In this document: one piece after another, positions 29,407 through 36,768 of the stretch
Numbering within the stretch: position 1 is the first letter of the stretch
Layout of the letters: each line of letters starts with the position of its first letter
Source of the DNA: Sphingobacteriales bacterium
Lineage (GTDB): Bacteria > Bacteroidota > Bacteroidia > Chitinophagales > CAIOSU01
Reading direction: 5' to 3'
Length of the DNA: 36,768 bases
Assembly (NCBI GenBank): GCA_027486795.1
Contig: JAIXOI010000023.1
Span: 386,076-422,843, forward strand
The notes under the pieces: generated by a model
Database searches by the model: none
What the model was told of the DNA's origin: nothing
The model's input: the letters and a program-made list of their open reading frames with translations, nothing else
Made by a program: the position numbers and the translations under genes

Positions 29407-30663
29407 TTACTTAATACCGAAAGCCTCTTTCACGGTATCTACAAAATCAAGTTTCTCCCAAGTAAATAGTTCTACTTTCACTTTCTTGGTTTCGCCGCTA
29501 GGCAGGGTAAAGGTTTTGGTTACCTCTTCGTTCTTACGGCCCATGTGGCCATAAGCTGCGGTTTCGCTATACATTGGCGTGCGTAGTTTCAAGCGCTGCT
29601 CAATAGCATAAGGGCGCATATCAAACACCTTTTCTACAATCTTCGCAATCTCGCCATCGTTCAAACCTACACGGCCTGTGCCGTAAGTGTTTACATAAAT
29701 ACCCATAGGCTTGGCAACACCAATAGCATACGATACTTGCACCAAAACCTCGTCGGCTACACCTGCAGCTACTAGGTTTTTGGCAATGTGGCGTGTAGCA
29801 TAAGCTGCGCTGCGGTCAACTTTCGAAGGGTCTTTGCCGCTAAATGCACCACCACCGTGGGCACCTTTGCCACCGTAGGTATCAACTATAATTTTACGAC
29901 CGGTAAGGCCAGTATCGCCATGCGGACCGCCGATAACGAACTTACCCGTTGGGTTTACGTGGTACGTAATTTTGTCATCAAACAATTTCTGTACACGCTT
30001 AGGGAATTTCTTCATTACGCGCGGAATCAAGATGTTGATTACATCATCCTCAATCTGCTTTTGCATCTTCTTCTCGCTATCGAAATCGTCGTGCTGCGTA
30101 GAAAGCACAATAGCATCAATACGGATAGGCGTGTTGTCGTCGCTATACTCAATAGTAACCTGGCTCTTGCTATCAGGGCGTAGGTACTTTATCTTTTTGT
30201 TTTCGCGGCGAAGCTCGGCCAACTCAATCAATAGTTGGTGGGCAATGTCCAAAGGCAACGGCATGTAGTTGTCGGTATCTTTGGTAGCGTAGCCAAACAT
30301 CATACCTTGGTCGCCGGCACCTTGCTCTTCCTTGTTTTTTTTGTCAACGCCTTGGTTAATGTCGCTCGATTGCTCGTGAATGGCCGAGATAATGCCGCAG
30401 CTATTGGCCTCGAACATATACTCGCTCTTGGTGTAACCAATTTTCTTGATCACGTCGCGGGCAATAGTTTGTACATCTAGGTATACGGTCGATTTTACTT
30501 CGCCAGCCAACACCACCAAACCAGTGGTACACAAGGTTTCGCAGGCTACTTTCGATTCTGGGTCGAAAGCCAAGAAGTTATCAATCAATGCATCTGATAT
30601 TTGGTCGGATACTTTGTCCGGATGTCCTTCCGAAACCGACTCAGAGGTAAACAAATAGGGCAT
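29407..30663 (-). CDS. metK: S-adenosylmethionine synthetase
   Basis: 418 residues. Signature parts: [18 protein letters not shown] near the N-terminus (ATP-binding His and Asp), [12 protein letters not shown] in the middle, and [19 protein letters not shown] near 270-290. It makes AdoMet from methionine and ATP. The insert between strands ([19 protein letters not shown]) is typical of Bacteroidota MetK. The -7 box is at 30702-30709; no SAM riboswitch is visible in the 45-base leader. AdoMet is the cofactor of the nearby type IIG methyltransferase, though the two are unlikely to be co-regulated. Confidence 0.96.
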
Positions 30664-30782: not shown

Positions 30783-30934
30783 TACGTGTTGCGTGTTTCC
30801 CTCACCCCAACCCTCTCTCTCGCCTCAGGCGAGAAGAGGCGGATTTACGTAGTACGTTAATTTTGTTTTTGCGAAGCAAAAAGTAGTGCCCCTCTCCCTA
30901 TGAGAAAGGCGGGGTGAGGGTTTTGGCATAACAC
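30783..30934 (+). repeat. Mosaic palindromic repeat, copy A
   Basis: Left end GTTTCCCTCACCCCAACC, hairpin CTCGCCTCAGGCGAG, middle module with TTTTTGCGAAGCAAAAA, right end GGTGAGGGTTTTGGCATAAC. The right inner hairpin is degenerate (CCCTATGAG). First of six copies, all in the same orientation; copies A-C are head-to-tail. Confidence 0.88.
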
Positions 30935-30945
30935 TAACCATTTTT

Positions 30946-31087
30946 TACATGTTGCGTGTTTCCCTCACCTAACCTCTCCCAAAAAAGGGAGAGGGACTTA
31001 CGTACTATGTACTATGTTTTTTGCGAAGCAAAAAGTAGTGCCCCTCTCCCTATGGGAGAGGTTGGGTGAGGGTTTTGACATAGCACC
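30946..31087 (+). repeat. Mosaic palindromic repeat, copy B
   Basis: Same ends as copy A, but the left hairpin is CTCTCCC-AAAAAA-GGGAGAG and the right is CTCTCCC-TAT-GGGAGAG. The middle TTTTTTGCGAAGCAAAAA module is shared. A short tandem TACTATGTACTATG lies inside. Confidence 0.88.
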
Positions 31088-31095
31088 AAGCATGT

Positions 31096-31257
31096 TACAT
31101 ATTGTGTGTTTCCCTCACCCCAACCCTCTCTCTCGCCTCAGGCGAGAAGAGGCGGATTTACGTAGTACGTTCATTTTGTTTTTGCGAAGCAAAAAGTAGT
31201 GCCCCTCATCTCGCCTGAGGCGAGAGAGAGGTTGGGTGAGGGTTTTGACGCAACACC
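31096..31257 (+). repeat. Mosaic palindromic repeat, copy C
   Basis: CTCGCCTCAGGCGAG-type hairpins on both sides of the GCGAAGC middle module. Ends 37 bases before the DUF559 start. The left half is nearly identical to copy A. Confidence 0.88.
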
Positions 31258-31294
31258 ATTTTGAAATTTAATTCACATCCATTATTTTGCAACT

Positions 31295-31678
31295 ATGGAT
31301 GGCAACGAAAAGCCCAGCAAACTAACCCAGCGCAGGCAGCTGCGCCGCAATAGCACGCCTGCTGAGATTGCGCTGTGGAACATGATTAGGGACAAAAAGC
31401 TAGATGGACGTAAGTTTAGGCGCCAACATAGTATAGGGTTTTATATTGCCGACTTTTGTTGTGTGGCCGAAATGCTGGTAATAGAACTTGATGGGCAGGT
31501 TCATAATGAGCCTGGCGCGCAAGAGTACGATTTCCATAGAGACGAGTTTATTAAAAGCCAAGGTTTTACGGTGCTGCGTTTTGAAAACCGCACCGTTTTT
31601 GAGTTGCCAGATGCCGTGCTGCATGCCATACGGGCACATTTTGATGAAAACTTGGCTAGACAGCAGGGTTTGCGGTAG
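31295..31678 (+). CDS. DUF559 (Vsr/PD-(D/E)xK-like) endonuclease-domain protein
   Basis: 127 residues, the whole length being one DUF559 domain: RRNSTPAEIALWNMIRDKKL (E24), KFRRQHSIGFYIADF (D53) and VIELDGQVH (E64, D66, H70), the Vsr-like nuclease site. The RFENRTVFE segment closes the fold. DUF559 proteins are predicted nucleases of unknown role, close to very-short-patch repair enzymes. It lies alone between repeat copies C and D. A near-match -7 box TTATTTTG (31282-31289) ends five bases before the ATG. Both the family and the repeat association suggest DNA mobility or maintenance (inference). Confidence 0.88.
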   Translation: MDGNEKPSKLTQRRQLRRNSTPAEIALWNMIRDKKLDGRKFRRQHSIGFYIADFCCVAEMLVIELDGQVHNEPGAQEYDFHRDEFIKSQGFTVLRFENRTVFELPDAVLHAIRAHFDENLARQQGLR

Positions 31679-31713
31679 TTATCTTGTGTTGCACTCACCT
31701 AGCCATTCATTTT

Positions 31714-31866
31714 TACATATTGCGTGTTTCCCTCACCCCAACCCTCTCCCAAAAAAGGGAGAGGGGGTTTTGTTTGAGCAAGCTCAAAATGTTTGCCCGC
31801 AATATGTAAGTCCCTCTTCTCGCCTGAGGCGAGAGAGAGGCTAGGTGAGGGCTGGGACATAACACC
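31714..31866 (+). repeat. Mosaic palindromic repeat, copy D
   Basis: Same ends, left hairpin CCCTCTCCC-AAAAAA-GGGAGAGGG, right hairpin CTCGCCTGAGGCGAG. The middle is a different module with TTTGAGC-AA-GCTCAAA then TGTTTGCCCGCAATATG. Its last base (31866) is the last base of the type IIG stop codon. A degenerate left-end remnant precedes it (31684-31701). Confidence 0.88.
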
Positions 31867-34800
31867 TACCCCACACTCTCCTCCACTATTTTTATCTCCT
31901 CGGGGGTGAGGTTGTAGAGTTGGTAAACCAGTTGGTCTATTTCCGCTTCCAGTGCCGTGGTGTCGGCATTTGGGTCGGCTTCTTTTGCGGCTAAGATTTT
32001 CTCAGTTATGCTTATTAGCTTAAATTGTACTTTATCATCAGTCTCAGGAATTGGAATCTGTTCAAAATATTGTGGTTTAACCTCAATATATCCGCCGCTT
32101 CTAATTACACAAACACTTTTCAAAAAGTACCAAACTGCTTTTGAATTTAAAACAGCAAGCAATGCCTTATTGCTTGTGGGTAAAAAAACTGCTGGTGCAT
32201 TTAAATACACGCCTGTTTCATCGAATGCAAACTTATTACTGTTTTGAAGGTTTGGAAAAATAATTTTGGGTTTATCAAACAAATCATAATAAGCACAATT
32301 TCTCAACTCCCACCAATATTCGCCTTTATCATAACGCTTAATTGACTTTTCTTGGAAAGGTTCAAGATGATTGATTATTTCAGGATAAGTTTTTTTCATT
32401 TTTTCAAATGCCGCACTTTCACTTAACTTGCCAAAACTCTTTGCAGTAGATTTACTTTCAAATACAATCATTTTTTTAAACGGTGCGGGTGCTTTCCATT
32501 TTTTTATATCCTTACCATCATACACATTTTTCAAAACAGTATAATTTCCCAAATTACGGTCTGTTACAAATGCCTCATTTAGTGCTGTTTTGATTCCGTA
32601 GTAGCACTTACCATATAACTCGGATACCGCTTTATGACTAAGTACTTTCGTTAAAATGTTTTGTTCAAGTGAGTTAATGAAATTCCATGCCGAAGAGTTT
32701 AAATTACTTTGTGCAACATCAGTGAATACTGATTCTTTGTGCATTAGTTCTTTATCGCTAAAATTGCCCCTTATATATTTAAAGAATTTGAAGTTGTTCT
32801 TCTGTTTTGATTTTTTTACTACCAAAATAATAGGATAAGTTGTTGCCTCTTCAAATACAACAACATCTGTAAAGTCAATGTATCTTTGAAAACTGAAATT
32901 GCTTTCAACAAATTCTCTTAACGTTTTTCCAGCAGCGGTTTTGTCAAAAGTGTTATTGATAAAAGAGAAGTAGCCTCCATTTCTAATAACTTTATGACTT
33001 AATTCATAGAAGTATGAAAAAATATCCCCTCCTGACGTAAATACTCTATAGTTGATTTGAAGGTATTGTTTAAAATCTCCAAGCTCTTCCTGCCTTATAT
33101 ACGGCGGATTCCCAATCACCACATCAAATCCCACAAAATCGCCATTATCATCTAGCACTTCGGGGAACTCAAAGCGCCACTCAAAGGCATTGCGGTATAT
33201 CTTGTTACCCTCAATGTCGTTTATCTCTCCTTCGCGTTGCGCTATCAGTAGCTGCAAGCGGCGCATTTCCAGTTCCTTCTTGCTTTCGTCCATTTGTTTG
33301 TCGCCAAACAAGTCGGTGTTCAAGGTTTCTAGTAGCAAGTATTCGCCACGCAGCTTGCTCAGTTGCTTGCGGCGCGGGTCGCGGTTGCTTACACTATCTT
33401 TAAACTGCTGCTTTATATCGTGTATAAATGCCAGTAGCTCGTTTTTGGCCTCGCGGCTGGTGGTGTCTTTGTAGGCCGCTACGGCATTGCGGTAGCTTTG
33501 TATGGTAAATTTGTCGCGCTTAAATACGTCGGTCAGGTCTTCGTCCAAAGCAAACCTACTTACCAAGCTATTGCCCTCTTTTATGTTTATGTCAATATTG
33601 GGCAGGGTCTCAAGGTCGGTATAGCCGCTTTCGGTATTGTAGTAGGCGTTTTTCAATAGTTCAATCCAAAGGCGCAGGCGGCATATTTTTACGCTGTTGA
33701 GGTTAATATCTACACCAAACAGGCAATTTTCTATTATTGTCTGCTTCTCATTAAACAACGCCTCTTGCAGCTTTTGCAACCCATCAATGGGCTTGCCCGT
33801 GGTGCTCATGCGGTACTGAAAAAACGCCATGTCCTCCTCGCGGTCGGTTATCATCAACTCGTCGTTCTCAATCTCTAGGCTCCAATCCTTATCTACTCTC
33901 GCTCCATTGGCATAGCATAGCAGGTTTAGTTCATATTTTATGGCTATTACCTCATTGAGCGCGCTTACCAAAAAGTGCCCGCTGCCCACGGCAGGGTCGC
34001 AAATTTTTAGGCTGTTTATTACGTCGTTGTAGGCCTTGCGTTTTTTGGCATCGTGGTACTCTAGGTGCTCGTGCAGTTGGTCAAAGGTTTCCACCTTCCA
34101 GCCATAAGCATCGTTAAATTTTTGCACGGTGGCGCGGCGTATGGTTTCGCGGCACATGTACATGGTTATAAAGCCAGGCGTAAAAAAGGAGCCGTCTTTA
34201 TAACCGTTTATCTTCTCAAATATCAGCCCCAGCACGCTGGCGTTAATTAGGCGTTTGTTTTGTTCCTGTATTTCTTCGGTGCCCTCACTGCTAAAGTTAT
34301 ACGCATCTAAAAAAGCAAACAGGTAGTGCATGGTGCGCTGCTCAGTGTTTTTGGGCAGCGGCTTGCCTTCTGGGCTTTTTAGCACGGTGCTGCTGTATAG
34401 CGGCATGGTGGCTAAGTCGTCCATATCGGTTATGCTCACTAGGTCTTCCTCTAGCCCAGTTTGCTCAAATAGGCTACTATTGAGGTAGGGTATGTGGGCA
34501 AATTTTTCTTTTACCTCGCTGCGCCTAGCTTCGGGGCGCTTGGCCATTACATCAAAAAACAGTTTCTCTAGCTCATCAAACTCAGGTATAAAAGCACTGT
34601 GCAGAAACTTAAATTGTGGGTTGCCATGGTTGTAGGTAAGCAGCTGCGCTTCAAGTAGTTTAAGGAAAAGTACTCTGTTCATCCAAGTAATGCAAAGCTC
34701 CAAGGCTACGTTAAATACCCGCTCTTCATCATTATCGCCAAAGTGGCCCGGGTTGGTAAGCTTGGGCAGTTTGTTGCGGTCTTCGATGCGCCGAATGCAC

Positions 34801-35654
34801 ATCTCTAGCAAGCTGGCGGCATTGCGCTCACCTTGGGGTTTGCGCGAAATGAGTTTTTTGCCCTTGTCTTTAAACTCCACCAAGCCAACAATGTGCAATA
34901 GCTCGGCATAGAACTGCTTATCGAGTGAGTTGCTGTCGTTGGCAAATGGCTGCTTAAGCAAGTGCTGCGGGCTCATGAGCTTGTACAGCGCCACCAGCTT
35001 ATTATCGTCGGCTAGGTCGGTGTTGCGTATGGCCTTTTCGTAACTGTTTATGCTGAACCAGGCAAACTCTAACTGGTCGGCCACTGCGGCCACATACTTA
35101 GGGGCTATTTCCTTATAAAATAGCGAAGTGTTGCCACTAGTTTTTTGCCCTGTGCTCCAGCTACGGTATTCTTTTAATAGGGCTTTGTTTTCGTAAAACA
35201 GTTTCTCAAACAGCTTGGCATCAAATACGTACCACTCTTGTACATTGGTTATTACTAAGTGTTTCAACTCGTTGTTGCCGCCATCGTCAACCCGCTCGCG
35301 CAGGTAGTATAGTAGCAGCTCGTACATGGCCTTGGCGTTCAGGTTATCCTTAGTTACCATTTCGGCCTTGTTCTTGGGGGCTTTTACCTCAAACAATACC
35401 CCAATAGGGTCTTTAGCCGATTTGCCCGTGCGGATAACCAAATCGTAATACTCGTGTGGGGTTATGTCGTATTCCTGATAAAACACATCGCGCAAAAACT
35501 GCGAAACGTATGTTTTCTGTTTTTCCTCGTCGGTATCGCCCATTTTATCCAAAAGGGTAACAAAGGCCGCTTTGTAGCGGTCCATCTCGTCGCGGGTAAC
35601 AGATTGCTTGCGGTAGGCCTTGTTAAGCGCTTGCCCAATTTTGAGGATATTCAT
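31866..35654 (-). CDS. Type IIG restriction-modification enzyme (fused nuclease, methyltransferase and specificity)
   Basis: 1262 residues, one polypeptide. N-terminal PD-(D/E)xK nuclease: D71 and E89-V-K91 in LFEVKAP. Helical connector about 100-480. N6-adenine methyltransferase: GSFFTPG (488-494, motif X), DPAVGSGHF (553-561, motif I, AdoMet), GVDIN (647-651), GNPPY (848-852, catalytic motif IV). A TaqI-like target-recognition domain follows from about 880 to the end (SGGYIEVKPQYFEQIPIP). It methylates and cuts at one recognition site; the site cannot be read from sequence. No partner gene needed. The stop abuts repeat D and a TAGCTTTG promoter lies before the ATG. Confidence 0.93.
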   Translation of the reverse strand: MNILKIGQALNKAYRKQSVTRDEMDRYKAAFVTLLDKMGDTDEEKQKTYVSQFLRDVFYQEYDITPHEYYDLVIRTGKSAKDPIGVLFEVKAPKNKAEMVTKDNLNAKAMYELLLYYLRERVDDGGNNELKHLVITNVQEWYVFDAKLFEKLFYENKALLKEYRSWSTGQKTSGNTSLFYKEIAPKYVAAVADQLEFAWFSINSYEKAIRNTDLADDNKLVALYKLMSPQHLLKQPFANDSNSLDKQFYAELLHIVGLVEFKDKGKKLISRKPQGERNAASLLEMCIRRIEDRNKLPKLTNPGHFGDNDEERVFNVALELCITWMNRVLFLKLLEAQLLTYNHGNPQFKFLHSAFIPEFDELEKLFFDVMAKRPEARRSEVKEKFAHIPYLNSSLFEQTGLEEDLVSITDMDDLATMPLYSSTVLKSPEGKPLPKNTEQRTMHYLFAFLDAYNFSSEGTEEIQEQNKRLINASVLGLIFEKINGYKDGSFFTPGFITMYMCRETIRRATVQKFNDAYGWKVETFDQLHEHLEYHDAKKRKAYNDVINSLKICDPAVGSGHFLVSALNEVIAIKYELNLLCYANGARVDKDWSLEIENDELMITDREEDMAFFQYRMSTTGKPIDGLQKLQEALFNEKQTIIENCLFGVDINLNSVKICRLRLWIELLKNAYYNTESGYTDLETLPNIDINIKEGNSLVSRFALDEDLTDVFKRDKFTIQSYRNAVAAYKDTTSREAKNELLAFIHDIKQQFKDSVSNRDPRRKQLSKLRGEYLLLETLNTDLFGDKQMDESKKELEMRRLQLLIAQREGEINDIEGNKIYRNAFEWRFEFPEVLDDNGDFVGFDVVIGNPPYIRQEELGDFKQYLQINYRVFTSGGDIFSYFYELSHKVIRNGGYFSFINNTFDKTAAGKTLREFVESNFSFQRYIDFTDVVVFEEATTYPIILVVKKSKQKNNFKFFKYIRGNFSDKELMHKESVFTDVAQSNLNSSAWNFINSLEQNILTKVLSHKAVSELYGKCYYGIKTALNEAFVTDRNLGNYTVLKNVYDGKDIKKWKAPAPFKKMIVFESKSTAKSFGKLSESAAFEKMKKTYPEIINHLEPFQEKSIKRYDKGEYWWELRNCAYYDLFDKPKIIFPNLQNSNKFAFDETGVYLNAPAVFLPTSNKALLAVLNSKAVWYFLKSVCVIRSGGYIEVKPQYFEQIPIPETDDKVQFKLISITEKILAAKEADPNADTTALEAEIDQLVYQLYNLTPEEIKIVEESVG

Positions 35655-35709: not shown

Positions 35710-35947
35710 TACGTGTTTTGTGTTTCCCTCACCCCAACCCTCTCTCTCGCCTCAGGCGAGAAGTGGGGGTTTTACATAGTATGTCCTATATTGTTTTTGC
35801 GAAGCGAAAAGCTTTTGTTTTTTTGCCCCTCTTCTCCCCTTAGGCGAGAAGATGAGGCTTTGTTTGAGCAAGCTCAAAATGTTTGCCCGCAATACGTAAG
35901 TCCCTCTCCCTCTGGGAGAGGTTAGGTGAGGGTTTTGACATAACACC
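35710..35947 (+). repeat. Mosaic palindromic repeat, copy E (hybrid, both middle modules)
   Basis: 238 bases. It has the GCGAAGC middle module of copies A-C followed by the TTTGAGC-AA-GCTCAAA module of copy D, separated by a degenerate CTCCCCTTAGGCGAG hairpin. Right end GGTTAGGTGAGGGTTTTGAC. Looks like two repeats fused by recombination. Confidence 0.85.
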
Positions 35948-35956
35948 AAGCATTTT

Positions 35957-36104
35957 TACATATTGCGTGTTTCCCTCACCCCAACCCTCTCCCAAAAAGG
36001 GAGAGGGGGCCTTACATATTATGTCCATTTTTTTGCAGAGCAAAAAAGAAAGCCCCTCTTCTCGCCTGAGGCGAGGGAGAGGTTGGGTGAGGGTTTTGAC
36101 ACAC
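35957..36104 (+). repeat. Mosaic palindromic repeat, copy F
   Basis: Left hairpin CTCTCCC-AAAAA-GGGAGAG, shortened middle module TTTTTTTGCAGAGCAAAAAA, right hairpin CTCGCCTGAGGCGAG, right end GGTGAGGGTTTTGAC. Directly follows copy E and ends the series. Confidence 0.87.
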
Positions 36105-36107
36105 TCC

Positions 36108-36133
36108 AACTCGCGCGGAAGTAACTTCCGCGC
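36108..36133. repeat. Strong hairpin, first copy of a direct-repeat pair
   Basis: GCGCGGAAGT-A-ACTTCCGCGC (36113-36133) is a perfect ten-pair hairpin with a one-base centre. A 25-base stretch starting AACTCGCGCGGAA recurs at 36399-36423 with three mismatches, so the pair brackets the RNA-like locus. Confidence 0.75.
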
Positions 36134-36215
36134 CAGCAACGGTTATTAATCCCGCAAAAAATCAATTTCCCTCACGCTCAACCACTTGCATTTTTACATA
36201 AAAATAAATGGTGTT

Positions 36216-36386: not shown

Positions 36387-36398
36387 ACGGCAATTGGC

Positions 36399-36423
36399 AA
36401 CTCGCGCGGAAATTACTTCCGTG
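36399..36423. repeat. Second copy of the AACTCGCGCGGAA hairpin repeat
   Basis: AACTCGCGCGGAAATTACTT then CCGTG; the hairpin is weaker here because of two changes in the centre and one in the arm. It is followed by a small palindrome GCGGA-T-TCCGC. Confidence 0.7.
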
Positions 36424-36431
36424 TGAGCGGA

Positions 36432-36642
36432 TTCCGCCTGCATACTTTAGCAACATAACTTGGTTGGGGGTGGGGTGGTTAGCACATAACACGGGCAGCC
36501 AACGCGCACCCAGACCACCCCTAACCCCTCCTTTTCCATTTGCTCATTGCCGTGCGAAGGAGGGGAACCAAAACGGATAGGATGACATGCTTGCTTCCGC
36601 TTATGTACTTTAGCAACATGACTCGGTAGCTCCCCTCCTTCG
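36432..36642. repeat. Second repeat family: C-rich palindrome with a 33-base direct repeat
   Basis: A 33-base direct repeat (36432-36464 and 36595-36627; TTCCGC then TACTTTAGCAACAT) brackets G/C-rich inverted arms: GGGGTGGGGTGGT near 36467 against ACCACCCCTAACCCC (36514-36528), CCCCTCCTT (36525-36533) against AAGGAGGGG (36557-36565), and CGAAGGAGGGGA (36555-36566) against TCCCCTCCTTCG (36631-36642). No gene within. Confidence 0.65.
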
Positions 36643-36650
36643 AATGGCCC

Positions 36651-36768
36651 TGACCCGTCCTAAAATAAGTTTGCACCAAAGTAAACTTATATGACCAAGA
36701 ACAAGAGCACGGTAAAACGCCCTACATTTTACACCGAAGCCTTCAAGCGCCATGTGGTGGAAGAACAC
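36651..36768 (+). mobile_element. Left end of an IS3-like insertion sequence, cut by window edge
   Basis: The sequence starting TGACCCGTCCTAAAATAAGT resembles an IS3-family inverted-repeat tip (begins TG) placed 40 bases before a transposase ATG. The exact boundary is inferred because the right end is outside the window. An eight-pair hairpin ATAAGTTT/AAACTTAT (36665-36672, 36683-36690) ends just before the ATG. Confidence 0.55.
36691..36768 (+). CDS. IS3-family transposase OrfA, N-terminal 26 residues
   Basis: ATG at 36691 opens MTKNKSTVKRPTFYTEAFKR then HVVEEH and runs off the window. The F-Y-T-E-A-F-K-R-x-V-V pattern is the start of the helix-turn-helix of IS3/IS911 OrfA (HTH_Tnp_1 type). 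Only 26 codons are visible, so the subgroup cannot be given. The start follows directly on a hairpin, which may limit translation from outside transcripts. Confidence 0.68.
   Translation, partial: MTKNKSTVKRPTFYTEAFKRHVVEEH

Follow-up and report, generated by a model that had tools for sequence, protein, structure and literature searches.

Repeats described under the names triplex motif (TM), BoxC and PIT have been studied in E. coli, in which Holder et al. counted 23 TM copies and demonstrated that the motif forms a triplex in vitro, according to the relevant passages of their paper (Holder et al., 2015; PMC4666352). The same passages mention an earlier study, in which PIT elements had neither promoter nor terminator activity. 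The words "endonuclease" and "Vsr" are absent from the main text of this paper. A second arrangement to be considered is that of REPtrons, in which a small nuclease gene of the HUH/Y1 type is flanked by palindromic repeats. From what is given in passages of PMC3733652, these repeats are either single or inverted dimers with a GTAG tag, further repeats are found elsewhere in the genome, and the type of repeat goes with the type of nuclease.

Nucleases of the DUF559 family are widespread, and very little is known of what they do. VsrA of Caulobacter, which has the same Pfam domain, has been connected with the DNA damage response and was proposed to act in mismatch repair, as an endonuclease that goes with a cytosine methyltransferase, in passages that are not concerned with repeats (PMC12907096). 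In the literature searched, no paper linking DUF559 with such repeats was found. The repeat and the protein family are each known already. To our knowledge, no natural enzyme dedicated to intrastrand triplex DNA has been known earlier.

A DUF559 Gene Within an Array of Predicted Triplex Motifs

The window, by which we mean the whole stretch of 36,768 nucleotides that was analysed, contains an array of six repeat copies (A to F), three of which precede a DUF559 gene and three of which come after it. The features are as follows.

29407–30663, minus strand: metK (S-adenosylmethionine synthetase, named by eye), the fixed flank of the array
30796–30926, no strand: repeat copy A, an inverted hairpin pair whose left unit fits the triplex code poorly
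30959–31078, no strand: repeat copy B, with two 0-mismatch triplex motifs, 30962–30994 (minus) and 31043–31072 (plus)
31109–31253, no strand: repeat copy C, two inverted units of hairpin and foot, the right one TM-like at 31209–31244 (plus) with 2 mismatches
31295–31678, plus strand: DUF559 (PF04480) gene, a single-domain nuclease of PD-(D/E)XK type, 127 aa (from Pfam, alignment and PDB relatives)
31727–31860, no strand: repeat copy D, whose left unit is a 0-mismatch triplex motif, 31731–31765 (minus)
31866–35654, minus strand: Eco57I-type restriction-modification gene (DUF7149, DUF7814, Eco57I, TaqI_C; from Pfam and NCBIfam)
35723–35943, end approximate, no strand: repeat copy E, longer and apparently rearranged, with a triplex motif at 35903–35932 (plus)
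35970–36097, no strand: repeat copy F, with a triplex motif at 35974–36007 (minus)

Each copy is an inverted pair of one unit, made up of a hairpin and, after it, a G-rich foot (CCTCTCCC-TAT-GGGAGAGG-TT-GGGTGAGGG). When the foot is read antiparallel to the purine arm, G comes over G, and A or T over A. As a TM we counted a Y-arm, loop, R-arm, loop and a third strand that follows the code G·G and A or T·A, and the repeat units of the window agree with this definition at the level of the sequence code. Arms and foot covary between lineages; AAGGAGGGG pairs with GGGGTGGTT, with T opposite A and G opposite G. Judged by its sequence, the window unit is the BoxC/PIT/TM element of Holder et al. (2015; PMC4666352): it has in common with the element, as presented in passages of that paper, the hairpin, the third-strand code, a near-identical sequence (TM_ECO 2, CCCTCTCCCTTGAGGGAGAGGGTTAGGGTGAGGGT; window, CCTCTCCCTATGGGAGAGGTTGGGTGAGGG) and the occurrence as inverted pairs. 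The difference is that, according to these passages, no gene for mobility was found near the copies of E. coli, whereas a partner nuclease is proposed here. Triplex folding of the window copies is predicted from the third-strand code, and the single-strand fold z-scores of copies A, B, C, D, and F range from -4.2 to -12.1.

The triplex-code detector found five 0-mismatch motifs in the window, every one within the array, and the other units of the array have two or more mismatches to the code. When copy D was compared with the genome, ten of its 11 best matches (E <= 1.8e-7, self included) fell inside the window and one elsewhere, so that the clustering is not due to chance. A half-unit pattern has 25 matches genome-wide including the array, and the reversed pattern has none; half-units thus also occur outside the array. 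As a variation of the motif, in six loci of the wider sample described below (L133, L152, L161, L166, L175, and L177) the purine arm is joined to the third strand by a linker that itself contains a small hairpin, e.g., ATTTTCACGAAGTGAAAAT, so that a side arm would protrude from the folded triplex.

The preliminary description of this locus, made from the sequence alone, had noticed a lone and intact DUF559 gene between copies C and D, and the present analysis confirms it. PF04480 matches residues 12–114 of the product with E = 1.1e-34 (119.1 bits against a gathering score of 20.6), and the genome (3.9 Mb in 59 contigs, 97.6% complete) has no other DUF559 match. When 12 DUF559 domains are aligned, the acidic residues singled out at that time, E24, D53, E64, and D66, are the same in all of them, and the gaps of 37 and 36 bases given between gene and repeats fit if the repeat ends of C and D are read slightly further out. 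The feet of the right unit of copy C and of the left unit of copy D both point toward DUF559. No Y1_Tnp match was found by Pfam in this reading frame; the gene between the repeats is DUF559.

The Eco57I-type gene, bracketed by copies D and E, is probably a passenger. It has a weak likeness to BREX PglX, far under the cut-offs of those models. On the other side of the array, TM and DUF559 are found upstream of metK in two genomes of the genus of the window (G000 and G002), and neither of them was seen in the 900 bp examined upstream of metK in three others (G003, G004, and G005).

Association of DUF559 with TMs Across Phyla

From 84,980 species genomes, at least 579 DUF559 loci were confirmed, and the best 80 by protein similarity were analysed, which belong to Bacteroidota and many other phyla and include one archaeon. 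The earlier suggestion that DUF559 and the repeats are linked in the manner of REP elements and their RAYT enzymes gains strong support from these 80 loci. A TM was located within 300 bp of DUF559 in 64 of them, on both sides in 37, and was not found by the detector within this distance in 16; the median distance between domain and TM is 49 bp. TM density around DUF559 is 4.97/kb within 150 bp, 0.64 at 150–300 bp, 0.24 at 300–600 bp, and 0.02–0.10 beyond (best 80 of 579). Perfect hairpins of any sequence behave likewise in these best 80 of 579, with 3.17/kb within 150 bp and 0.04–0.13/kb beyond 300 bp. Chance or base composition as the cause of the enrichment is ruled out by shuffling, since shuffled flanks gave 0 TMs in 238 kb. 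Other ORFs of these 80 loci, at a distance of over 1 kb from DUF559, served for comparison: 24 of 734 have a TM within 300 bp (both sides, 3), and for DUF559 genes with full flanks, taken from the same best 80 of 579, the corresponding count is 63 of 76 (both sides, 36).

The preliminary description had proposed to ask whether DUF559 genes are enriched near the repeats in Bacteroidota, and they are. In the 30 best-scoring Bacteroidota loci, from 222 genomes with a match, a TM was present within 300 bp in 24 and on both sides in 21. Two control nuclease families were taken from Bacteroidota only: TMs were found within 300 bp in 0/30 GIY-YIG loci and within 1.5 kb in 0/30 loci of Y1_Tnp, the RAYT family. 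Even with two mismatches allowed and the motif placed anywhere in the locus, the numbers are 1/30 for GIY-YIG, 0/30 for Y1_Tnp, and 25/30 for DUF559. The idea that any small nuclease would do is ruled out by the GIY-YIG result, and RAYT as the agent of the TMs by the Y1_Tnp result, both for the Bacteroidota sample. For loci cut by contig ends, match positions were set by hand from contig coordinates (L037, L044, L045, L050, L060, L064, and L068, and likewise the controls L246, L249, L253, and L319); positions of three control loci (L254, L302, and L321) are uncorrected, by which zero TM counts are unaffected and GIY-YIG hairpin densities may shift. As a separate observation, GIY-YIG genes form short tandem arrays in several Bacteroidota (G138:C1 1733881–1734727, G072:C86 45033–46092, and G082:C2 234372–235265).

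At the level of whole genomes the link is modest. In a table counted by eye with one TM pattern, DUF559 is present in 10 of the 11 Bacteroidota genomes with at least four matches of that pattern, versus 212 of the 384 others (Fisher p = 0.016). The expectation that repeat number tracks the presence of DUF559 is borne out to this extent, and it fails in one genome (G007) with six pattern matches and no DUF559 match, which goes some way toward the many-repeat genome without DUF559 that had been named beforehand as counting against the idea. The identity of the repeat as a triplex motif, the reach of the association far beyond Bacteroidota, and the in-frame occurrence of DUF559 and repeats in conserved genes, to which we come below, were not part of the preliminary description.

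Orientation and Co-variation of TMs and Nuclease

The third strand of the nearest TM faces DUF559 in 74 of 101 cases and points away in 27 (p = 3e-6). Facing inward fits a gene located between TM pairs with outward feet. Polarity relative to DUF559 is mixed, as seen from these 27 cases and from the outward third strands of the unit in L188 described below. When the left flank was compared with the reverse complement of the right flanks of 78 loci, the locus' own right flank was the best match in 36/78. Mean matching scores are 24.1 for inverted and 21.7 for direct comparison, with the inverted one better in 48/78; a direct match nearly as good would be expected with a palindromic pair on each side. 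In five loci (L067, L276, L278, L286, and L289) the TMs flanking DUF559 have the same orientation, as though the gene stood between two whole TM pairs. If the direct TMs there recombined, a solo pair would remain, comparable to a solo LTR.

The class of TM follows the nuclease. With TM classes defined by our own patterns for 64 labelled loci, 24 changes are needed on the DUF559 tree, against a mean of 32.7 and a minimum of 27 in 300 shuffles. The tree also tracks phylum (17 changes). Cross-phylum pairs of the same TM class, from which five loci without phylum name were left out, are more alike than expected (1/2000 within-phylum shuffles), by a small margin of 2.9% identity. In three genomes with multiple DUF559 genes (G359, G280, and G292), the DUF559 copies that were read have different TM types. 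Co-variation of TM class with the nuclease tree argues for recognition of the repeat by DUF559, as far as sequences can tell, and is not a proof of it.

DUF559 and TMs in the Reading Frames of Conserved Genes

In 21 of the 80 loci (best 80 of 579), DUF559 is found within one open frame of at least 350 aa. The embedding is read from a single open frame, and the translation is putative. According to Pfam, the hosts are MetH in eight cases, HsdR in five, HsdM in two, and in one case each HsdS, MetRS, adenine deaminase, an rRNA methylase, and an epimerase; one of the 21 frames has no other Pfam domain. The five HsdR hosts are distributed over Bacteroidota, Verrucomicrobiota, Cyanobacteria, Planctomycetes, and one Methanophagales archaeon. 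From a first set of hosts, those of L114 (LeuRS) and L116 (HsdR) were confirmed by Pfam and the rest were named by eye. TMs were detected within 300 bp in 13 of the 21 embedded loci and in none of the other eight. Residues flanking the embedded DUF559 often read as translated TMs, for example SPLPLGEDLGEG or PSPSGRG. Indeed, four of six and three of six reading frames are free of stops in two types of TM, and these frames encode short Pro/Gly-rich linkers (SPLPLGEG, PSPSGRG); therefore the units can sit in frame in loops of host proteins or between domains.

LeuRS of Flavobacteriaceae offers a comparison of genes with and without DUF559, for which loci were taken from 30 of 78 genomes with a match. 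The distance from WIGKS to TTRPDT is 30–49 residues in 27 of the 30 genes and 179–231 residues in three, which carry DUF559 at one and the same loop; the other 27 have none. In the DNA of these three inserts no TM was detected; their translations contain, if anything, peptides like SPLSPEGG and PPSGERG. Other short peptides occupy the same loop in Flavobacteriaceae (VIASEAKQS and HAELVEA in L205, L222, L223, and L210), and we take them to resemble what dispersed repeats of other kinds would encode. This loop may accept in-frame repeats of various kinds.

A Two-Copy Unit in MetH of Flavobacterium

Two DUF559 domains per MetH are encoded in two Flavobacterium metagenome bins (L180 and L188). In MetH of L188, two 454-bp stretches at different sites are 84% identical over 456 aligned columns. 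Their likeness starts at AGCCCCCC-A-CCCCC-GAA-GGGGG and stops at CCCCC-TTC-GGGGG-C-GGGGGGGGCT; these ends are TM-like and inverted, their third strands point outward, and past them the sequences are not related. Thus one unit is found at different sites and ends at terminal inverted repeats, as transposable elements do. No target duplication was evident by eye at the two copies in this metagenome assembly. Relatives were compared by eye: the first site is empty in L182, and the second is empty in L196 and L200, holds an in-frame TM-like stretch without DUF559 in L140 and L182, and holds TM-DUF559-TM in L180 and L188. Gene conversion between two older inserts could also have made the pair alike. 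On sequence grounds the L188 pair appears to be the nearest thing to a movement caught in the act. Recent copies were also looked for by blastn among 30 of the 85 DUF559 loci of 12 genomes with several copies, and at 1e-8 no match was found between loci of one genome.

The DUF559 Gene ycjD of E. coli

The gene ycjD of E. coli K-12 is a DUF559 gene. A BoxC-like element with an imperfect stem (CCCCTCACCCTAACCCTCTCCCCAGAGGGGCGAGGGG) is located 166 bp past its 3′ end; it was found by eye and missed by the detector. Of 5426 E. coli genomes, 3333 contain at least 80% of the fabI-ycjD-sapF stretch. E. coli was considered as a clean empty site and rejected, since two strains without ycjD at this place have efflux genes beside fabI; in one ycjD-less strain, the fabI-sapF interval is occupied by an efflux operon through to sapF. 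In another strain (E. coli 2017-01-4CC, L298), ycjD is annotated as incomplete at the C-terminus with the BoxC-like element intact; the aligned stretch is too short to reveal the break.

Relation to REPtrons and Homing Endonucleases

As in REPtrons, whose features are again taken from passages of PMC3733652, the repeats are found on both sides of a nuclease gene and at other places in the genome. The differences lie in the parts: where REPtrons have an HUH/Y1 nuclease and GTAG-tagged REP sequences, the TM unit has DUF559 of the PD-(D/E)XK type and a triplex-code hairpin with a G-rich foot of the GGGTGAGGG or GGGGTGGTT type, with neither an HUH/Y1 gene between the repeats nor a GTAG tag. Unlike REPtrons, DUF559 with its TMs is often in frame inside conserved genes. 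By membership it is not a REPtron, and by analogy it would work like one.

A profile of 12 DUF559 sequences matched PDB 3hrl, the structure of a close relative, with E = 7.1e-36. It also matched 3r3p, entitled "Mobile intron protein", with E = 2e-5, which was not found with a single DUF559 sequence as query. We take 3r3p to be the Vsr-type homing endonuclease I-Bth0305I. Besides this homology to a known homing nuclease, insertion within conserved genes is shared with it. The TM-associated genes differ from the homing type in that TMs flank the gene and the hosts are many unrelated genes; no intron or intein was noticed.

Possible Mechanism and Alternative Explanations

From the observed association, its specificity against two nuclease families, the co-variation, the presence and absence among relatives, and the one pair of units with ends, we infer that DUF559 recognises TMs by their triplex fold and cuts DNA, that repair does the copying, and that transposition results. 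We consider it fairly probable that DUF559 and the TM repeats form one mobile unit, TM-DUF559-TM, and that TM pairs alone are its non-autonomous offspring, similar to REP elements or MITEs. A PD-(D/E)XK nuclease of Vsr/homing type would recognise the hairpin and its G-rich third strand in single-stranded or strained DNA, and would nick or break DNA at the TM or at the target. Repair would then copy the TM pair, or TM-DUF559-TM, into a new place, and such units would come to sit in frame in loops of host proteins and between domains. Points that speak against a mobile unit are the mixed polarity, the nearly equal direct match of the flanks, the lack of a detected TM in 16 of 80 loci, in eight of the 21 embedded ones and in the three LeuRS inserts, the lack of within-genome matches by blastn, the imperfect element at ycjD, the genome G007, and the small effect of the co-variation on a tree that also tracks phylum. 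More tentatively, it is possible that this is a new class of mobile element, in which a triplex-reading PD-(D/E)XK nuclease moves TMs, either by themselves or along with its gene, within genomes of bacteria and archaea, also into the frames of essential proteins without splicing, and that this is the agent behind BoxC/PIT/TM. The L188 pair with its defined ends adds weight to both the mobile unit and the new class.

It was also considered that TMs spread otherwise and serve only as landing pads or homology arms, between which DUF559 is copied as a homing endonuclease by break repair. The profile match to 3r3p agrees with this, and so do insertions near conserved protein motifs (Walker A of HsdR, GDVHDIGKN of MetH, and TTRPDT of LeuRS, all seen by eye), the second MetH site, at which some relatives have the TM-like stretch alone and others TM-DUF559-TM, and the loci with DUF559 between direct-orientation TMs. 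However, units in many unrelated genes require movement to new sites, and the spread of TMs would be left without an agent since neither control family goes with them, so that we regard homing into repeats as rather unlikely. A mobile unit is also to be weighed against a role of TMs as regulatory or protective DNA of the nuclease gene, that is, as binding sites, terminators or a guarded or repaired structure. Their closeness to the domain (median 49 bp) would suit such a role, as would the link of VsrA of Caulobacter to the DNA damage response, given in passages of PMC12907096. It is nevertheless improbable: copies inside the frames of other genes cannot be terminators, half-units also occur away from the single DUF559 gene of the window genome, the likeness of the L188 units stops at TM-like ends, and PIT elements lacked promoter and terminator activity in the earlier study mentioned in passages of Holder et al. 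(2015; PMC4666352).

Very improbable, in our estimate, is that TMs and DUF559 are simply carried along together in shared insertion hot spots or restriction-modification islands. In favour of this, restriction-modification genes are found among the hosts and neighbours in several cases, and between fabI and sapF of E. coli some strains have ycjD where one has an efflux operon. Hitch-hiking of this kind would not account for the other ORFs of the same loci being mostly without TMs (24/734 with one), for the lack of TMs at GIY-YIG and Y1_Tnp genes in Bacteroidota, or for the TM class tracking the nuclease tree. If the link between DUF559 and TMs is true, each of them gains a testable function, and a natural partner is proposed for triplex DNA. 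If TM-DUF559-TM is a mobile unit as well, it could explain the spread of TM repeats, including those of E. coli K-12, and would represent an element that enters conserved genes in frame.

Further Repeats Near the Contig End

Near the end of the contig, the window contains at 36514–36768 a second TM type (ACCACCCCTAACCCCTCC ... GAAGGAGGGG) and, after it from 36691 on, the apparent start of a transposase gene. Between the array and this region, a palindrome unlike the TMs (CAACTCGCGCGGAAGTAACTTCCGCG) is present in two copies, 36107–36137 and 36398–36428, which are 84% alike and 291 bp apart.
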